Shown here: positions 40,059 through 59,296 of the stretch, one piece after another
How positions within the stretch are numbered: the first letter of the stretch is position 1
How the letters are laid out: each line of letters opens with the position of its first letter
NCBI GenBank assembly: GCA_017461445.1
Contig: JAFTXW010000015.1
Location: 26,077 to 90,076 of the forward strand
Length of the DNA stretch: 64,000 bases
Direction of reading: 5' to 3'
Source: Oscillospiraceae bacterium
GTDB taxonomy: Bacteria > Bacillota > Clostridia > Oscillospirales > Oscillospiraceae
Program-made: the position numbers and the translations under genes
Notes under the pieces: model-generated
The model's input: only the letters and a program-made list of their open reading frames with translations
What the model was told of the DNA's origin: nothing
Databases searched by the model: none

Positions 40059-40844
40059 ATGTACGATTTTCATATACATTCCCGGGTGTCCTTTGATGGC
40101 CACGACACCGGCCTGCAGCTCGCACAAGCTGCTGCAACAGCAGGGCTGAAGGAGATCTGCTTCACGGATCATGTGGATTATGACCCCCTGGGCACCATGC
40201 CCGACATTGCTTTCGACACTGCTGCTTACAACGCGGAATACGACGGTCTGGAGGTACCCGGTCTGACCATCCGCCGGGGCATGGAATTCGGCCTGGCCCG
40301 GGACAATGTGGAGCAATTCAAGAAAGACCTGCAGCGGCGGCAGTTTGACTTCGTGCTGGGCTCCATGCATTTTGTGGACGACTTGGATGTGTATTTCCAG
40401 CCCTACTGGGAGGGAAAGACCATCTTCCAGGCGGAGCGGCGGTATCTGGAAGAAACGCTGGAATGTGTAAAGATCCACGACGACTTCGACGTTCTGGCCC
40501 ACCTGACCTACATCAGTAAGACCCACTGCCATCCCGCTCCCCGTCCTGTGCCCTACGCCGAGCACCGGGAGATTATCGACGAGATTTTGAAGACGCTGGC
40601 CGAAAAAGGCAAGGGTCTGGAAATGAACACCAGCGGCGTAGACCGCTGCGGAGGGTATCTGCCCACGGAGGACTATTTCCGGCGGTTCAAGGAGCTGGGC
40701 GGTGAGATCGTCACCGTGGGCTCCGATGCCCACCGTTCCGACCGGGTGGGACAGTATTCCCACGAAGCCTGCGCCATTCTGGGGGATATTTTCGGGTATG
40801 TCTGTACCTTTGCGGACAGAAAGCCCATTTTCCATAAGCTGTAA
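40059..40844 (+). CDS. PHP-domain phosphatase, histidinol-phosphatase (HisJ) type
   Basis: 261 residues. The PHP metal motifs are visible: YDFHIHS (H5, H7), CFTDHVDY, RGMEFGL, LGSMHFVDD, LAHLTYISK and the final TVGSDAHRSDRVGQ. The length and EICFTDHVDYDP match histidinol-phosphatases of the HisJ/HisK type, which hydrolyse L-histidinol phosphate with two or three metal ions. No other his gene lies near, so a different phosphate ester is possible. GGGAGGAG precedes the ATG at 40059. It is co-transcribed with mutY. Confidence 0.85.
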   Translation: MYDFHIHSRVSFDGHDTGLQLAQAAATAGLKEICFTDHVDYDPLGTMPDIAFDTAAYNAEYDGLEVPGLTIRRGMEFGLARDNVEQFKKDLQRRQFDFVLGSMHFVDDLDVYFQPYWEGKTIFQAERRYLEETLECVKIHDDFDVLAHLTYISKTHCHPAPRPVPYAEHREIIDEILKTLAEKGKGLEMNTSGVDRCGGYLPTEDYFRRFKELGGEIVTVGSDAHRSDRVGQYSHEACAILGDIFGYVCTFADRKPIFHKL

Positions 40845-41156
40845 TTATTGGGGCAGCGCGTTGATCTCCGTCATCAGGTACATCCCCACGGTGATGCCGT
40901 GGGCGAAGGCCAGCTGCTCGTGTTCCAGACATAGGTCACAGACCAGGTTATGAAGAGCATCGTCCTCCTCTACGGACAGCTTTTTTAAAATATGTCCCAT
41001 CTCCTGAAACCGCTCCCGGATGGTGTCGTTCACAATGGGATTGGCGGTGGTATAAATGTAGTGGAGCATCTCCAGAAGAGATTCAAATTCCCCCTCATAT
41101 TTGGTCAGGGGATGGGATTCCAGATAGTCGTAGACCTGGCTGACGTGGATGGACAT
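40845..41156 (-). CDS. Small helical protein (DUF6809-like), under operator control
   Basis: 103 residues, almost wholly helical and acidic. EGEFESLLEMLHYIYTTANP and LVCDLCLEHEQLAFAHGITV resemble small DUF6809-type proteins common in Oscillospirales; no catalytic motif is seen. AAGGAGG lies before the ATG. Its promoter is overlapped by two palindromic operators and it is divergent from an XRE regulator, so it is probably the regulated target. Its stop abuts the end of the convergent PHP phosphatase gene with no spacer. Function unknown. Confidence 0.75.
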   Translation of the reverse strand: MSIHVSQVYDYLESHPLTKYEGEFESLLEMLHYIYTTANPIVNDTIRERFQEMGHILKKLSVEEDDALHNLVCDLCLEHEQLAFAHGITVGMYLMTEINALPQ

Positions 41157-41174
41157 GGTTGTTACCTCCTTGTT

Positions 41175-41216
41175 AGAACTTTTGTGTTCTTGTACATTAT
41201 AGAACTTTTGAGTTCT
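41175..41216. promoter_or_regulatory. Two palindromic operators
   Basis: 41201-41216 is a perfect palindrome (AGAACT, TTTG, AGTTCT) that lies in the spacer between the -10 and -35 boxes of the small-protein promoter. 41175-41190 is the same sequence with one mismatch, centred 26 bases away in the leader. This is the layout expected for a dimeric repressor, most simply the adjacent XRE protein. Confidence 0.8.
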
Positions 41217-41224
41217 AAAGTCAA
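41196..41224 (-). promoter_or_regulatory. Promoter of the small helical protein gene
   Basis: Minus strand TTGACT (41224-41219), a 17-base spacer filled by the perfect operator, and TATAAT (41201-41196). Binding of a repressor there would block RNA polymerase. Confidence 0.88.
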
Positions 41225-41274
41225 TAGTACACTTCTATTCTATGATAGAATCCTCCAAAAGGAGGAGTGTACCA

Positions 41275-41508
41275 ATGCAAACATACCAAATCCGGCTTCG
41301 TCAGCTTCGTGAGGATCACGACAAAACACAAACAGAGATTGCCGCATACCTTGGAATCGAGCAAACGGTTTATTCCAGGTACGAAACTGGTAAAAACGAT
41401 ATGAAACCCTACCATATTATTGCCCTATGTGAATATTATCAGGTCAGTGCGGATTATCTTCTCGGTTTGCCCAAGGGGTTGCCTTACGGCCTGAGCAAAA
41501 CAAAATAA
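41275..41508 (+). CDS. XRE-family transcriptional regulator
   Basis: 77 residues, a single helix-turn-helix domain: YQIRLRQLREDHDKTQTEIA, AYLGIEQTVYSRYETG and KPYHIIALCEYYQVSADYLL are the classical HTH_3 helices. I use the ATG at 41275 (AGGAGG upstream). It has no sensor domain, so it may respond to a partner protein. It is divergent from the small helical protein, and the operators between them suggest that it represses that gene and perhaps itself. The C-terminal residues end just before a repeat element. Confidence 0.92.
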   Translation: MQTYQIRLRQLREDHDKTQTEIAAYLGIEQTVYSRYETGKNDMKPYHIIALCEYYQVSADYLLGLPKGLPYGLSKTK

Positions 41509-41515
41509 GCGCACT

Positions 41516-41579
41516 CCGCGTAGGGGCGACCCTTGCGGTCGCCCGGCGATGTGGAACACATCGCACCGCCGAAGGCGGC
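41516..41579. repeat. Family A MITE-like element, partial copy
   Basis: It starts with CGCGTAGGGGCGACCC, the terminal sequence of the complete copy at 59156-59296, and contains the family hairpin GCGATGTG-GAA-CACATCGC. The right end is missing; a family B element follows directly. Confidence 0.75.
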
Positions 41580-41581
41580 AC

Positions 41582-41713
41582 AAGCCTTCCCCTTTGGGGA
41601 AGGTGGCACGGCGAAGCCGTGACGGATGAGGGCGGCCCATAGGGCCGCAGCGGGCGAAGCCCGCTCACCTCACCCGCCCCCTTCGGGGGCACCCTCCCCA
41701 AAGGGGAGGGCTT
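41582..41713. repeat. Family B inverted-repeat element
   Basis: 132 bases bounded by 24-base inverted repeats (41582-41605 and 41690-41713; cores CCTTCCCCTTTGGGGAAGG and CCCTCCCCAAAGGGGAGGG) with two mismatches. The interior is made of short GC-rich hairpins such as GGCGGCCCATAGGGCCGC. No coding potential. The rest of the gap to 41890 holds only the promoter below. Confidence 0.75.
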
Positions 41714-41813
41714 TGATGCGATAAAACGTGCAAATTAAATATCCGATCCGCCAATCGTCCGCAGTATGCGGGCGATTGTTTTTGTAGGAAAAGCACTTTT
41801 TCCTGTGAAAATA

Positions 41814-41842
41814 TTGACAATTTGTGAATCAGCAAGTATACT
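41814..41842 (+). promoter_or_regulatory. Promoter of the esterase-esterase-ATP-grasp cluster
   Basis: TTGACA (41814-41819), a 17-base spacer and TATACT (41837-41842), 48 bases before the first ATG. CGGAGGAAA precedes that ATG. Confidence 0.88.
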
Positions 41843-41890
41843 ATAGGGTATACCTAAATATCTGACATCATTTCGGAGGAAATCGAAACT

Positions 41891-42646
41891 ATGGTAAAAA
41901 AATGGAATGTCACCATTCCCAAGCTCTCCGGTGACAAACCGCGCCAGGCTTACATCTGGCTGCCCGAATCCTATGAGAAGGATACGGACAAGCGTTACCC
42001 CGTTATGTATATGTTCGACGGGCACAACGTTTTCTTTGATGAAGACGCCACCTACGGCAAGTCCTGGGGACTGGCGAAATATATGCAGGAGAATCCCAAG
42101 GATCTGATCATCGTTGCCGTGGAATGCAACCACGAGGGCAACCGCCGCCTTGTGGAATACTCTCCCCTCACCTACAAAAATTCCGAGCACGGCAGCATCA
42201 AGGGCAAGGGCAGTGTCTATATGAACTGGATGGTCAACACCCTGAAACCCTACATCGACGAAACCTACCGCACCCTCCCCGACCGGAAGAATACCATCAT
42301 CGCAGGCTCCTCCATGGGCGGCCTGATGGCCCTCTACGGCGCGACGGTGTATAACCACATCTTCCAGCGGGGTGCCTGCCTGTCCCCCAGCCTGTGGGTA
42401 GCCCCCGGTAAGGTGCTGGAAATGGTGGCCCGGGCCCACATCCGCCGGGATACCACCATCTATATGGACTATGGCGAGCTGGAAATGTTCAACCACGCCG
42501 CCACCCAGGAATCCATGATCTCCACGGCTCACCTGCTGCTGACCAAGCGGGTGAATCTGGCCCTGCGGATCGTCCCCGGCGGCAACCACAGTGAAGCCTC
42601 CTGGGAAAAGCAGATTCCCATTTTTATGGACTGCCTGGGCCTGTAA
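41891..42646 (+). CDS. Alpha/beta-hydrolase, putative esterase (PF00756-like)
   Basis: 251 residues of the esterase D/IroE type. PVMYMFDGHNVFF forms the oxyanion-side strand, the nucleophile elbow is G139-S-S-M-G-G with S141, and H233 in PGGNHSEASWE is the likely catalytic His. No signal peptide. It is the first gene of a three-gene plus-strand cluster with a second esterase-fold protein and an ATP-grasp ligase, bounded by a promoter and a terminator. Codons are strongly biased to C/G-ending forms, suggesting high expression. The substrate is unknown. Confidence 0.86.
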   Translation: MVKKWNVTIPKLSGDKPRQAYIWLPESYEKDTDKRYPVMYMFDGHNVFFDEDATYGKSWGLAKYMQENPKDLIIVAVECNHEGNRRLVEYSPLTYKNSEHGSIKGKGSVYMNWMVNTLKPYIDETYRTLPDRKNTIIAGSSMGGLMALYGATVYNHIFQRGACLSPSLWVAPGKVLEMVARAHIRRDTTIYMDYGELEMFNHAATQESMISTAHLLLTKRVNLALRIVPGGNHSEASWEKQIPIFMDCLGL

Positions 42647-42650
42647 GGCA

Positions 42651-42679
42651 AATTGAAAATTGAAAGTTGAAAAATTATT
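42651..42679. repeat. Family C short A/T repeat
   Basis: AATTGAAAATTGAAAGTTGA and following bases. The same words recur at 52063-52085 and 54354-54429. It lies between the two esterase genes, so it is transcribed within the operon. Confidence 0.65.
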
Positions 42680-42707
42680 AAAACTGCTAGGAGAGAAAAA
42701 GTAAACT

Positions 42708-43460
42708 ATGGAGATTCGGTACGAAAAGCATTGGAGCGGTTACCTGAACCGCGAAATGGAGTTCAAGGTCTACGGCCACTGCGGCAAGCCTGTCATGTTC
42801 ATCCCCTGCCAGGCGGGCCGCTTCTGGGATTTTGAAAGCTTCAAAATGATCGACTACTGGGCAAAGTGGATCGAGGAGGGCAAGTGCATGGTCTTCTCCA
42901 TCGATACCATTGACAACGAAGCCTGGGCCGCCCAGGGTGCGGACAACCGCTGGCGCATCGAGAACCACGAGAAGTGGTACAACTACGTCGTCAACGAAAT
43001 GGTTCCCACCATCAAGCACATTGCCGGCATGGCCAACGGCCACGACCAGGGCATTATGACCTTCGGTGCCTCCATGGGTGCCATGCACGCCGCCAACCTG
43101 TACTACCGCCGTCCCGACCTGTTCGACAGCTGCTTCGCCATCTCCGGCCTGTACGACAATAAGGAATTCTTCGGCAATTACTGCGACGAGCTGGTTTACA
43201 ACAACTGCCCCTGCCTGTACCTGCAGAACATGCCTGATGACCACTACTACAAGGAAATGTACAACAGCCAGAAGAGCCTCATTATCTGCGGCCAGGGTGC
43301 CTGGGAAGAGCCCCTGCTGGAATCCACCCGCTGGCTGGACACTGTCTGCTGCCAGAAGGGCATCCACACCCGCTTTGAATACTGGGGCCTGGATGTGAAC
43401 CACGACTGGCCCTGGTGGTACAAGATGGTGGAGACCTACCTGCCCTGGTTCCTGGGCTGA
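42708..43460 (+). CDS. Second alpha/beta-hydrolase-fold protein (esterase-like)
   Basis: 250 residues. The fold is seen in GKPVMFIPCQAGRFWDFESF and the nucleophile elbow G120-A-S-M-G with S122, and H232 in LDVNHDWPWWYKM is the probable catalytic His. It is related only distantly to the first esterase, so this is not a simple duplication. Many Tyr, Trp and Cys residues are present. No signal peptide. AGGAG stands about 15 bases before the ATG. Biased codons again suggest strong expression. It probably works on the same compound as its neighbours. Confidence 0.82.
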   Translation: MEIRYEKHWSGYLNREMEFKVYGHCGKPVMFIPCQAGRFWDFESFKMIDYWAKWIEEGKCMVFSIDTIDNEAWAAQGADNRWRIENHEKWYNYVVNEMVPTIKHIAGMANGHDQGIMTFGASMGAMHAANLYYRRPDLFDSCFAISGLYDNKEFFGNYCDELVYNNCPCLYLQNMPDDHYYKEMYNSQKSLIICGQGAWEEPLLESTRWLDTVCCQKGIHTRFEYWGLDVNHDWPWWYKMVETYLPWFLG

Positions 43461-43543
43461 GCACTTCCCGTTTTCCCTTGTAGGGGAGGGCTTAACGCCC
43501 CATCCCCCGTGATTTCGTATTTTATTAAAGGAGAGAGATCTCA

Positions 43544-44734
43544 ATGAAAAATTTCGTATTCATTTCCCCCAACTTCCCTCTGACCTACTGGAAGTTCTGC
43601 CGTGAGCTGAAGAACAACGGCATGCGCGTTCTGGGCATCGGCGACTGCCCCTATGACGAGCTGATGCAGGAGCTGAAGGATTCCCTGCACGAGTACTACA
43701 AGGTCTCCAGCCTGGAGAACAACGACGAGGTCTTCAAGGCCGTCGCTTTCTTCTCCTTCAAGTACGGCAAGATCGACTGGCTGGAATCCAACAACGAATA
43801 CTGGCTGATGCGGGACGCATGGCTGCGCACCGAGTTCAACATCACCACTGGCCCCAAGCTCCATGAGATGGACAAGATCAAGTACAAGTCCGCCATGAAG
43901 GAATACTACGCCAAGGCAGGCCTGCCCACCGCCCGCTACCACCTGGTGGAGGGTCTGGAGGATGCTCTGGAGTTCGCCCACATGGTCGGCTATCCCGTGG
44001 TGGTGAAGCCCGACAACGGCGTTGGTGCCAACAACACCTACAAGCTCCGTTCCGATGAGGATGTCCAGTGGTTCATCAACACCAAGGACAGCAACGTGTA
44101 CATCATGGAAGAGTTCGTCAACGGCTATGTCCAGACCTTCGACGGCATCGTGGACTCCAAGGGCAATATGCTGTTTGAATCCGGCAACATCACCCCCCTG
44201 TCCCTGATGGACATCGTCAACGACAACGGCGACTCCGTTTACTATCTGGTCAAGGAGCTGCCCGAGAAGATCCGCCAGGCAGGTCTGGCTACCGTCAAGT
44301 CCTTCGGCGTCAAGAGCCGCTTCATCCATCTGGAGTTCTTCGTCCTGAACGAGGACCAGGAGGGCCTGGGCAAGAAGGGCGACGTGCTGGGTCTGGAGGT
44401 CAACATGCGTCCCGCCGGCGGCTTTACCCCCGAGATGTACAACTACTCTCAGGAGACCGACGTTTATAAGATCTGGGCCGACATGATCGCCTTTGACTGT
44501 GACACCAAGGGCACCGGCAACCACCACTTCTGCGCCTTCTACGGCCGCCGCGACGGCAAGCAGTACAAGCTGGATGACTACGAGGTCATGCTGAAGTACG
44601 GCCACAAGATGGTCATGTGGGGCCGCATCCCCGATGCCCTCTCCGGCGCAATGGCAAACCAGATGTACGTTGCCAACTTCGATTCCGAAGAGGAAATGAT
44701 GGCCTTCTACGAGGATCTGGCTGCGCAGTATTGA
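43544..44734 (+). CDS. ATP-grasp carboxylate-amine ligase-like enzyme
   Basis: 396 residues. A pre-ATP-grasp domain (FVFISPNFPLTYWKFCRELK) is followed by the ATP-grasp fold: YPVVVKPDNGVGANNTY (150-166) binds ATP, IMEEFVNGYVQTFDG gives the hinge, and E264 and E285-V-N in LEVNMRPAGG are Mg ligands. Such enzymes activate a carboxylate as acyl-phosphate and join it to an amine or thiol. No fused partner domain shows the product. GGAGAG precedes the ATG. Third gene of the cluster, followed by a terminator; codon use is extreme, as in highly expressed genes. Confidence 0.88.
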   Translation: MKNFVFISPNFPLTYWKFCRELKNNGMRVLGIGDCPYDELMQELKDSLHEYYKVSSLENNDEVFKAVAFFSFKYGKIDWLESNNEYWLMRDAWLRTEFNITTGPKLHEMDKIKYKSAMKEYYAKAGLPTARYHLVEGLEDALEFAHMVGYPVVVKPDNGVGANNTYKLRSDEDVQWFINTKDSNVYIMEEFVNGYVQTFDGIVDSKGNMLFESGNITPLSLMDIVNDNGDSVYYLVKELPEKIRQAGLATVKSFGVKSRFIHLEFFVLNEDQEGLGKKGDVLGLEVNMRPAGGFTPEMYNYSQETDVYKIWADMIAFDCDTKGTGNHHFCAFYGRRDGKQYKLDDYEVMLKYGHKMVMWGRIPDALSGAMANQMYVANFDSEEEMMAFYEDLAAQY

Positions 44735-44745
44735 TTTCTGTGTAC

Positions 44746-44777
44746 AAAAAACGCTCACCTGTGGGTGAGCGTTTTTT
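44746..44777 (+). terminator. Terminator of the ATP-grasp cluster
   Basis: A 9-base perfect stem (ACGCTCACC, 44751-44759 with 44764-44772) flanked by AAAAA and TTTTT; usable in both directions. Confidence 0.93.
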
Positions 44778-44848
44778 AGTGTGGAGAGTTAAGAGTGGAG
44801 TGTGGAGTTTTTAGTTAGGAATTAGGGGTTAGGAGTGAGGAATGCTCC

Positions 44849-44960
44849 CGCGTAGGGGCGACCCTTGCGGTCGCCCGGGCACCCGAAGGGTGCCATTGCC
44901 CACAAAGGCAATCAAAATGCCGCCTTCGGCGGTGCGATGCGTTCCGCATCGCCGGGCGAC
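44849..44960. repeat. Family A MITE-like element, second copy
   Basis: It begins at CGCGTAGGGGCGACCC and ends with GCCGGGCGAC in the opposite orientation. The inner hairpin is GCGATGCG-TTC-CGCATCGC. Its right part overlaps the 3' end of the coding region at 44912-45343 and supplies the stop codon of that gene. Confidence 0.75.
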
Positions 44961-45343
44961 TGGGATTCCAGCAATGCGCATACTTCCTCCCCGATTGAAT
45001 CATTCTCAGCGGTTAACGCAATCATCCACGTAAAGTCAGTATTTAAAATATACAACGGCTCTGTTCTGCCCGCTTCCCATGTGACGATGTTCTTTTCAAA
45101 TTCTTTTCCTGGAATGTCCTTGCAGGGAACCGATTTGCCTGCGTACAATGCTGGAAGAGGTTCTGCGAAAAGAAATACGGAGGATGTATTTTGAATCAAG
45201 TCCAATACCTGACTGTAAGTAAGCATCACAGCATCTTCTTCCTTTATTGCTTCCCACAGCATGTGACTTGGACATAGCGCATATAGTTCCTCGATTGAAT
45301 ATTGATTAAAGAAGTAATCTATGATTTTCTCAGCATCACACAT
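44912..45343 (-). CDS. Hypothetical protein with repeat-derived C-terminus
   Basis: 143 residues. It begins MCDAEKIIDYFFNQYSIEEL and has YALCPSHMLWEAIKEEDAVM and EKNIVTWEAG; I recognise no family or active site. The start is the ATG at 45343, 4 bases after the mazG-like stop, with GGAAGGA upstream. The last 15 or so residues (QSPGDAERIAPPKAAF) are encoded by the family A repeat, so the element probably replaced the native end of the gene. Third gene of the ogt-mazG operon. It may be truncated. Confidence 0.72.
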   Translation of the reverse strand: MCDAEKIIDYFFNQYSIEELYALCPSHMLWEAIKEEDAVMLTYSQVLDLIQNTSSVFLFAEPLPALYAGKSVPCKDIPGKEFEKNIVTWEAGRTEPLYILNTDFTWMIALTAENDSIGEEVCALLESQSPGDAERIAPPKAAF

Positions 45344-45347
45344 ACAA

Positions 45348-45674
45348 TTAGTCCTTCCGATAAACAGAGCGATATGCACTGAACCCCTCCGGATACCGCT
45401 TGGCCAACTTTTCGATATTACCCCGGAATACATCTTCCAGGGGAATTTCCAGGGCGTAGGCGGTTTCCGCCAGGTACCAGGCGATGTCGCCCAGTTCTTT
45501 GGCCAGTTTCTCTTTGTCCAGGGCATGGCCCTGGGCCAGCCATTTTTTCACGATGTCGATGGCCTCGCCGGATTCTCCGCACAGGCCCATAACGCCGTTG
45601 ATAAGTACATCTTTTTTGTCCAGTTCCGGGTTCAGCGTCACCATGGCAAGCTTCTGATATTCGTTGATGGTCAT
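45348..45674 (-). CDS. MazG-like nucleotide pyrophosphohydrolase
   Basis: 108 residues, one all-alpha NTP-PPase domain. GLCGESGEAIDIVKKWL contains the ExxE of the Mg site and KLAKELGDIAWYLAETA the following ExxD. Such proteins cleave non-canonical dNTPs to monophosphates and clean the nucleotide pool. GAGGAGG is before the ATG. It lies 33 bases after ogt in the same direction, a plausible DNA-damage prevention pair. Confidence 0.9.
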   Translation of the reverse strand: MTINEYQKLAMVTLNPELDKKDVLINGVMGLCGESGEAIDIVKKWLAQGHALDKEKLAKELGDIAWYLAETAYALEIPLEDVFRGNIEKLAKRYPEGFSAYRSVYRKD

Positions 45675-59155: not shown

Positions 59156-59296
59156 CGCGTAGGGGCGACCCTTGCGGTCGCCCGATGCGATGCGCAGCAT
59201 CGCATCATAGCCCCCGCGTAAAGGGAAATATACGCCGCCTTCGGCGGCGCGATTTGTTCCAAATCGCCGGGCGACCGTAAGGGTCGCCCCTACGCG
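59156..59296. repeat. Family A MITE-like element, complete copy
   Basis: 141 bases with 29-base terminal inverted repeats (59156-59184 and 59268-59296, one mismatch; ends CGCGTAGGGGCGACCC). The interior has two hairpins (GATGCGATGCGCAGCATCGCATC and GCGATTTG-TTC-CAAATCGC) and no open frame. It lies between trmK and the Nif3-like gene and would be transcribed with them. Confidence 0.85.

Follow-up and report, generated by a model that had tools for sequence, protein, structure and literature searches.

A compact operon of an ATP-grasp ligase and two esterases in an Oscillospiraceae bacterium, a candidate for an undescribed small-molecule pathway

Organization of the locus

The 64,000-nt stretch of DNA from an Oscillospiraceae bacterium analysed here, referred to as the window, carries a compact operon of three co-directional genes on the forward strand, which encode two esterases (E1 and E2) and an ATP-grasp enzyme (AG). 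A sigma-70-type promoter lies upstream and an intrinsic terminator downstream (Table 1), with no other evident genes between them. A GGAG-type ribosome-binding site precedes each gene, and the intergenic gaps measure 61 and 83 nt. The initial annotation of this DNA had described one promoter and one terminator enclosing exactly three genes, a picture with which the open reading frames (ORFs), the promoter hexamers and the terminator hairpin agree. Its gene assignments, two alpha/beta-hydrolases of unlike sequence with nucleophiles S141 and S122 and an ATP-grasp enzyme without a fused partner, are borne out by the alignments, BLASTP and Pfam results given below.

Among 19 aligned relatives, 12 carry the two exact hexamers 5' of E1, separated by 16-18 nt. 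A second hairpin, followed by a T-run, is located just 5' of the promoter and may act as an insulating terminator for it; similar hairpins, recognized with a pattern devised for this analysis, are present in 8 of the 19 relatives. No Rfam match indicating a riboswitch or RNA leader was obtained in positions 40800-45400 at E up to 1.

Table 1. Features of the operon, its surroundings and related loci. Coordinates are window positions unless preceded by the name of another locus.
Feature	Coordinates	Strand	Description
Promoter	41814-41842	+	sigma-70-type, TTGACA-17-TATACT, 11/12 consensus positions
E1	41891-42646	+	251-residue PF00756 esterase, S141, H233
E2	42708-43460	+	250-residue PF00756-type esterase, S122, probable acid E200, H232 in HDWPWW
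AG	43544-44734	+	396-residue ATP-grasp ligase, remotely L-amino-acid-ligase-like
Intrinsic terminator hairpin	44746-44777	+	-20.3 kcal/mol, z -6.5
E2 ribosome-binding site	42690-42695	+	GGAGAG, read from sequence
AG ribosome-binding site	43530-43535	+	GGAGAG, read from sequence
Hairpin and T-run 5' of promoter	41752-41778	+	fold z -4.5
Repeat copy, upstream	41516-41546	+	31-nt stretch holding a dispersed palindromic repeat copy, repeat search
Repeat copy, downstream	44848-44878	+	second 31-nt direct copy, identical to 41516-41546, repeat search
Dispersed-repeat core	41520-41545	+	one of the four core copies has a mismatch
Dispersed-repeat core	44852-44877	+	
Dispersed-repeat core	59159-59184	+	
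Dispersed-repeat core	59268-59293	-	
Paralogous sulfur/thiol-type operon	L105 3684-10075		genome G000, contig C42; duplicate on C52
AG-HD fusion	L171:7946-10339		
AG-HD fusion	L172:7872-10271		
AG-HD fusion	L173:7081-9465		
AG-HD fusions	L198, L199, L200		
E2-AG-HD operon	L174:227-3430		same genus as the AG-HD fusions

The ATP-grasp enzyme and its esterase partners

AG exceeds the cut-off of the ATP-grasp domain PF02786 (24.0 bits against 19.8), and PF13535 matches 20 of 20 AG members at E up to 0.001. Every one of the 20 aligned sequences has E85, K155, H262, E264, E285, N287 and R289; of these residues, K155, E264, E285, N287 and R289 presumably bind ATP or Mg, as in other ATP-grasp enzymes. 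The best relative in PDB reached by a profile search is RizA (4wd3, E 2.6e-15), and BacD (3vmm) was also reached. AG resembles RizA in the glutamate corresponding to E85, in the HLE motif and in the E-x-x-x-R stretch, all of which line up in the alignment. It differs from both enzymes in the remoteness of the similarity (59.6 bits for RizA and 33.9 for BacD), in its last hundred residues, which stay uncovered, in being partnered by esterases, and in lying outside an antibiotic cluster. The alanine-anticapsin ligase model is absent among the NCBIfam matches listed for the window AG; the member from genome G350 scores 25.8 bits against it, and two others 19.9 and 18.6 bits, with a cut-off of 850.

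Both esterases belong to PF00756, with scores of 81.4 bits for E1 and 43.9 bits for E2 against a cut-off of 22. The E1 nucleophile S141 (in the motif GSSMGG) and H233 are invariant in 14 of 14 aligned E1 sequences, as are S122 (GxSMGA), E200 and H232 in 17 of 17 aligned E2 sequences. Judging from the alignment with the solved protein 5vol, E200 is the probable catalytic acid of E2. BLASTP finds no significant match between E1 and E2, whose profiles can be aligned over 59 columns surrounding the nucleophile. The solved sequences nearest to E1 in a profile search are feruloyl esterases; the best of these matches are remote and span about half of E1, with 7b5v covering nearly all of it. The E2 profile weakly reaches 5vol, a putative esterase (E 1.1e-6).

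The two proteins share with CE1 feruloyl/enterochelin-esterase-like enzymes the Pfam family and the conserved Ser nucleophile and His. Unlike them, E1 and E2 have no further Pfam module and no evident signal peptide, and they fall far under the NCBIfam cut-offs; E1 scores 33.3 bits against the enterochelin esterase model PRK10439, whose cut-off is 222. Since their N-termini, examined by eye, look free of a signal peptide, both would be cytosolic. S-formylglutathione hydrolase (TIGR02821) belongs to the same superfamily, and both E2 and E1b, an E1-like paralogue described below, match its model weakly, at 17.0 and 27.6 bits respectively against a cut-off of 281.7; E1 is absent among the matches listed. 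For the trio and eight members elsewhere, all the NCBIfam matches listed lie far under cut-off and reveal none of the clear characterised orthologues that would have counted against the initial annotation.

Conservation of the trio and exchangeability of E1

A scan of genome contigs yielded 564 confirmed loci, the best 80 of which, with AG identities of 64-95%, were kept. The order E1-E2-AG on a single strand is preserved in 71 of these 80 loci; another 7 run off the end of their contig, and the other 2 (L049 and L071) lack E1 despite having room for it. The median gaps in the 71 full loci are 29 nt between E1 and E2 and 45 nt between E2 and AG, and they do not exceed 100 nt in 61 and 64 loci, respectively. 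Up to three ORFs of at least 90 residues per side were clustered; flanking ORFs were available upstream in 72 of the 80 loci, downstream in 72, and on both sides in 64. No conserved fourth gene emerged, as the commonest flanking family reaches only 8 of the 80 loci, and the unit therefore occupies changing surroundings.

The distribution of AG is patchy. At E <1e-100, 24 of the 36 further genomes from the genus of the window contain it and two more give partial matches, whereas it was found in none of the 23 genomes that represent other families in the order. Across a sample of 299 genomes of the phylum (AG at E <1e-100, E2 at E up to 1e-20), the genomes with AG and those with E2 are the same 10, that of the window included, and the two genes are adjacent every time, within about 130 nt. 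Genome G125, with a weak AG match (97 bits) and no E2, lies outside these ten. In genome G109, E2 is split into two adjacent pieces beside an intact AG (L131:7152-7938), likely a disrupted gene or a sequencing error. In three further samples of 121, 197 and 121 genomes, AG (E up to 1e-50) was found in 56, 26 and 8 genomes, respectively; here, E2 was sought only within the fetched loci.

The composition of the unit was examined in 119 AG rows, a set free of duplicate or short loci and of AG matches below 90 bits or 330 residues. E1 and E2 accompany AG in 79 rows, E2 alone in 30, and E1 alone in 2; contig ends truncate several rows, and in two of the E2-only rows E1 lies slightly past the distance limit. 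The remaining eight rows, with neither esterase, comprise three fusions of AG to an HD-GYP-type domain (L171-L173), Massilia (L104), and four loci at contig edges. AG and E2 without a nearby E1 are found in Peptoclostridium and on two rhizobial plasmids. In three further loci, L191-L193, E1 stands beside AG with no E2, and genome G614, of the same genus as these, holds one such locus plus a second AG with E2.

Pairwise identities in 70 of the 71 full loci correlate best between AG and E2 (r 0.886), followed by E2 and E1 (0.800) and by AG and E1 (0.703). Among 247 pairs of loci whose AG proteins are at least 85% identical, E1 falls below 70% identity in 89 and E2 in only 5, which makes E1 the exchangeable part. 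The proposal of a three-part unit kept together in relatives thus holds as far as gene order goes, and that of three equal parts gives way to an AG-E2 core with an optional E1. In a tree of 51 AG rows, the window AG falls in a starred set of 12 rows with both esterases. The AG sequences of the two rhizobial plasmids nest, on a starred branch, within the clade of family f51, which we take, as a guess from its genome sizes, for Paenibacillaceae, and this placement indicates transfer between phyla.

Codon adaptation

The codon adaptation index (CAI) was computed against nine ORFs that belong to one ribosomal-protein operon in this genome, located by means of L2. The background consisted of 302 predicted genes of at least 150 residues, including some of the nine, taken from the window and from 23 further stretches. 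AG (CAI 0.775, 97.0 percentile) and E2 (0.737, 94.0 percentile) come close in codon bias to genes that, read from their N-termini, we presume to be EF-G-like and GAPDH-like. E1 has a CAI of 0.497 (70.9 percentile), and its G+C content at third codon positions stands at the 58th percentile. The extreme codon bias formerly ascribed to all three genes is therefore a property of AG and E2, and not of E1.

The same ranking is seen among the 80 loci when the weights of the window genome are applied. Median CAI values for loci L021-L049 are 0.587 for AG, 0.547 for E2, 0.401 for E1 and 0.270 for flanking ORFs, and for L050-L100 they are 0.521, 0.440, 0.322 and 0.259, respectively; the values for flanking ORFs may be too low, as mispredicted ones could be among them. 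Nine genomes of other families were each scored against their own ribosomal-protein reference, and in these AG mostly lies below the ribosomal proteins. AG is near average in a genome of family f144, which looks Streptococcus-like, a guess from its ribosomal-protein ORFs. The gradient in the 80 loci and the modest excess of AG elsewhere suggest that high expression may be a trait limited to Oscillospirales-type loci.

Paralogous and variant loci

The assembly of the window contains a second locus (L105) in which, on one strand, genes are found for a cystathionine-lyase-like protein, a PatB C-S lyase, the E1-like protein E1b, a second ATP-grasp enzyme (AG2), a Glu-Cys ligase, an EgtC-like amidotransferase and two ABC permeases. 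This is apparently a sulfur or thiol operon. AG2 is 48% identical to the window AG and has no E2 nearby. The Glu-Cys ligase resembles the first half of GshF, without the synthetase half, and AG2 plausibly replaces glutathione synthetase at this locus. The Glu-Cys ligase was found in 0 of 196 other genomes sampled in the order (1 of 197 when its own is counted). Of the paralogous and variant loci described here, L105 alone bears on the chemistry of the system, yet it concerns a paralogue.

The contigs that carry L105 and its duplicate, C42 and C52, share 99.998% identity across 46,209 bases. Foreign contamination was considered for them and rejected, as their CarB has 87.5% identity with the CarB of one genome of the genus. 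The CarB of contig C48 is 73.6% identical to that of the same genome and 90.6% identical to that of another genome of the genus. These identities place C42 and C52 in the same genus, and they may represent a duplication or a second strain or species co-binned with the first.

In genus g327 (family f57), AG carries a fused HD domain at its C-terminus (PF13487), which we take to be of the HD-GYP type by its motif. The fused frames have 796-830 residues in seven genomes; six loci were read and one was scanned with Pfam. A further copy of AG in this genus belongs to an E2-AG-HD operon (L174). Other neighbours of AG include AhpC and AhpF-like genes directly downstream in one genome and GSP_synth in a single lineage. 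Among the loci examined, peptidase, AhpC, GSP_synth and HD-GYP neighbours are all lineage-bound.

Repeats around the operon and relatives in viral records

Direct copies of a dispersed palindromic repeat bracket the operon, one on each side (Table 1). The 26-nt core of this repeat has four matches in the window at up to 3 mismatches and zero in shuffled sequences, and the same genome holds more copies on its contigs C3, C24 and C48. Within the gap between E2 and AG, a GC-rich hairpin (43483-43507) has a start that resembles the dispersed repeat; the whole gap is no more stable than shuffles (z -0.92).

Relatives of AG with 51-63% identity over 99% of its length are encoded by three unannotated faecal records of 5-8 kb labelled 'Bacteriophage sp.' (MT836893.1, MT838712.1 and MT838107.1), which may be phage or mislabelled bacterial contigs. 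No E2 relative appeared in one scan of viral contigs, and PHROGs matches are weak and function-unknown. A search with PADLOC models returned no defence-system match for E1, E2 or AG at E up to 0.1.

Comparison with described systems

No description of the conserved pair or trio was found among the papers listed by searches of the open full-text literature, with subscription papers outside their scope; the earlier statement that no described pathway of this form was known agrees with this outcome. The enzyme superfamilies are known, and the prospect of a new pathway is a realistic one. Graspetide loci with alpha/beta hydrolases likewise place an ATP-grasp enzyme next to such a hydrolase, the loci being defined by a precursor peptide (PMC8939145). 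In the window operon, where no precursor was sought, the two gaps leave little room for such a gene between the three. C7orf58 of animals also combines an ATP-grasp ligase and an esterase in one system, a secreted fusion of a TTL-like ATP-grasp and a GDSL/SGNH-like PC-esterase (PMC2824669). AG and the two esterases come from families other than those named there.

A proposed pathway and its alternatives

The favoured reading, held with about even confidence, is that of an operon prone to transfer that serves a single, undescribed small-molecule pathway, in which the ligase and the esterases act on a shared metabolite. AG would be an ATP-grasp carboxylate-amine ligase of the L-amino-acid-ligase type; it would activate a carboxylate as its acyl phosphate and couple this to an amine, with a small amide or a compound resembling a dipeptide as the product. 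E2 would be a cytosolic serine esterase acting on the same metabolite, either freeing the acid used by AG or cleaving or recycling its product. E1 would be a second esterase, optional and replaceable, for another ester or variant. The idea, put forward in the initial annotation, that such a set could make and recycle an amide, peptide or thioester is plausible. In favour of the proposal stand the conserved gene order amid changing flanks, the co-occurrence and correlated identities of AG and E2, the invariant active-site residues, the profile match of AG to RizA, the nesting of the rhizobial AG sequences and the codon bias of AG and E2; from these, a common pathway, the ligase chemistry and the cytosolic location are inferred.

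Several observations weigh against this proposal. AG stands without either esterase alongside in the AG-HD-GYP fusion lineage and in Massilia, E1 lies beside AG with no E2 in L191-L193 as well as in the 2 of 119 rows, and E2-like proteins of Thiodictyon and Rhizobium lusitanum have no detected AG within 6 kb. Furthermore, AG exceeds the flank median CAI by only 0.006-0.146 in the nine genomes of other families, and its remote similarity to L-amino-acid ligases could mean another ATP-grasp chemistry.

The paralogous L105 locus makes a thiol peptide one candidate for the product, as E1b and AG2 lie there beside the Glu-Cys ligase and the EgtC-like gene. A more specific alternative, judged unlikely, is that AG builds a cysteine peptide replacing glutathione and that E1 and E2 hydrolyse S-acyl adducts in the manner of S-formylglutathione hydrolase. 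Further genes of that operon, PatB and the cystathionine-lyase-like one, would fit this scheme, as would the weak match of E1b to the hydrolase model, the AhpC and AhpF-like genes 3' of AG in one genome, and a Glu-Cys ligase unseen in the other sampled genomes of the order. However, AG2 is only a distant paralogue without a nearby E2, no thiol gene is widely common beside the window-type operon in the 80 loci, and the AhpC/AhpF-like genes are unmatched in the locus of the same-genus genome G558 and in the other loci examined. Equally improbable is the salvage of ester conjugates, where E1 and E2 would cleave imported plant or host hydroxycinnamoyl-type esters in the cytosol and AG would couple the released acid to an amine. 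The feruloyl esterases nearest to E1 and the origin of many carriers from herbivore gut samples, and of some from soil or mud, argue for it; the solved relatives of E1 are nevertheless remote and mostly cover about half of it, and the lack of a widely common flanking family means that neither transporters nor carbohydrate genes have been retained next to the operon.

A role of AG together with HD-GYP-type proteins in nucleotide second-messenger control is suggested by the fusion in g327 and by the E2-AG-HD operon, and is considered very improbable: the long fused frames occur in that genus only, among the matches listed, and an HD-type partner is not a common neighbour in the 80 loci. Least credible of all is that three unrelated housekeeping genes simply remained side by side. 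All three do belong to large and common enzyme superfamilies, but their differing flanks, the apparent transfer between phyla and the patchy occurrence of AG within the genus and the order speak against it.

Returning to the proposed pathway of a ligase and esterases on a shared metabolite, a bolder form of it is put forward only tentatively and with considerably less confidence. It would be a horizontally spread pathway of primary metabolism, with ligase and esterase present at near-glycolytic levels, that supplies gut Oscillospirales-type bacteria with a small amide in abundance. This amide might be a compatible solute or a low-molecular-weight thiol peptide of a new kind, in an order where only 1 of 197 sampled genomes yielded the Glu-Cys ligase.

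The AG-E2 pair has been kept in Clostridia, in rhizobia and in families guessed to be Paenibacillaceae and Streptococcaceae. As it consists of soluble-looking enzymes and requires no large cluster, it offers a convenient target. The ribosomal-protein-like codon bias of AG and E2 in hindgut bacteria points to an unseen, perhaps abundant, metabolite.

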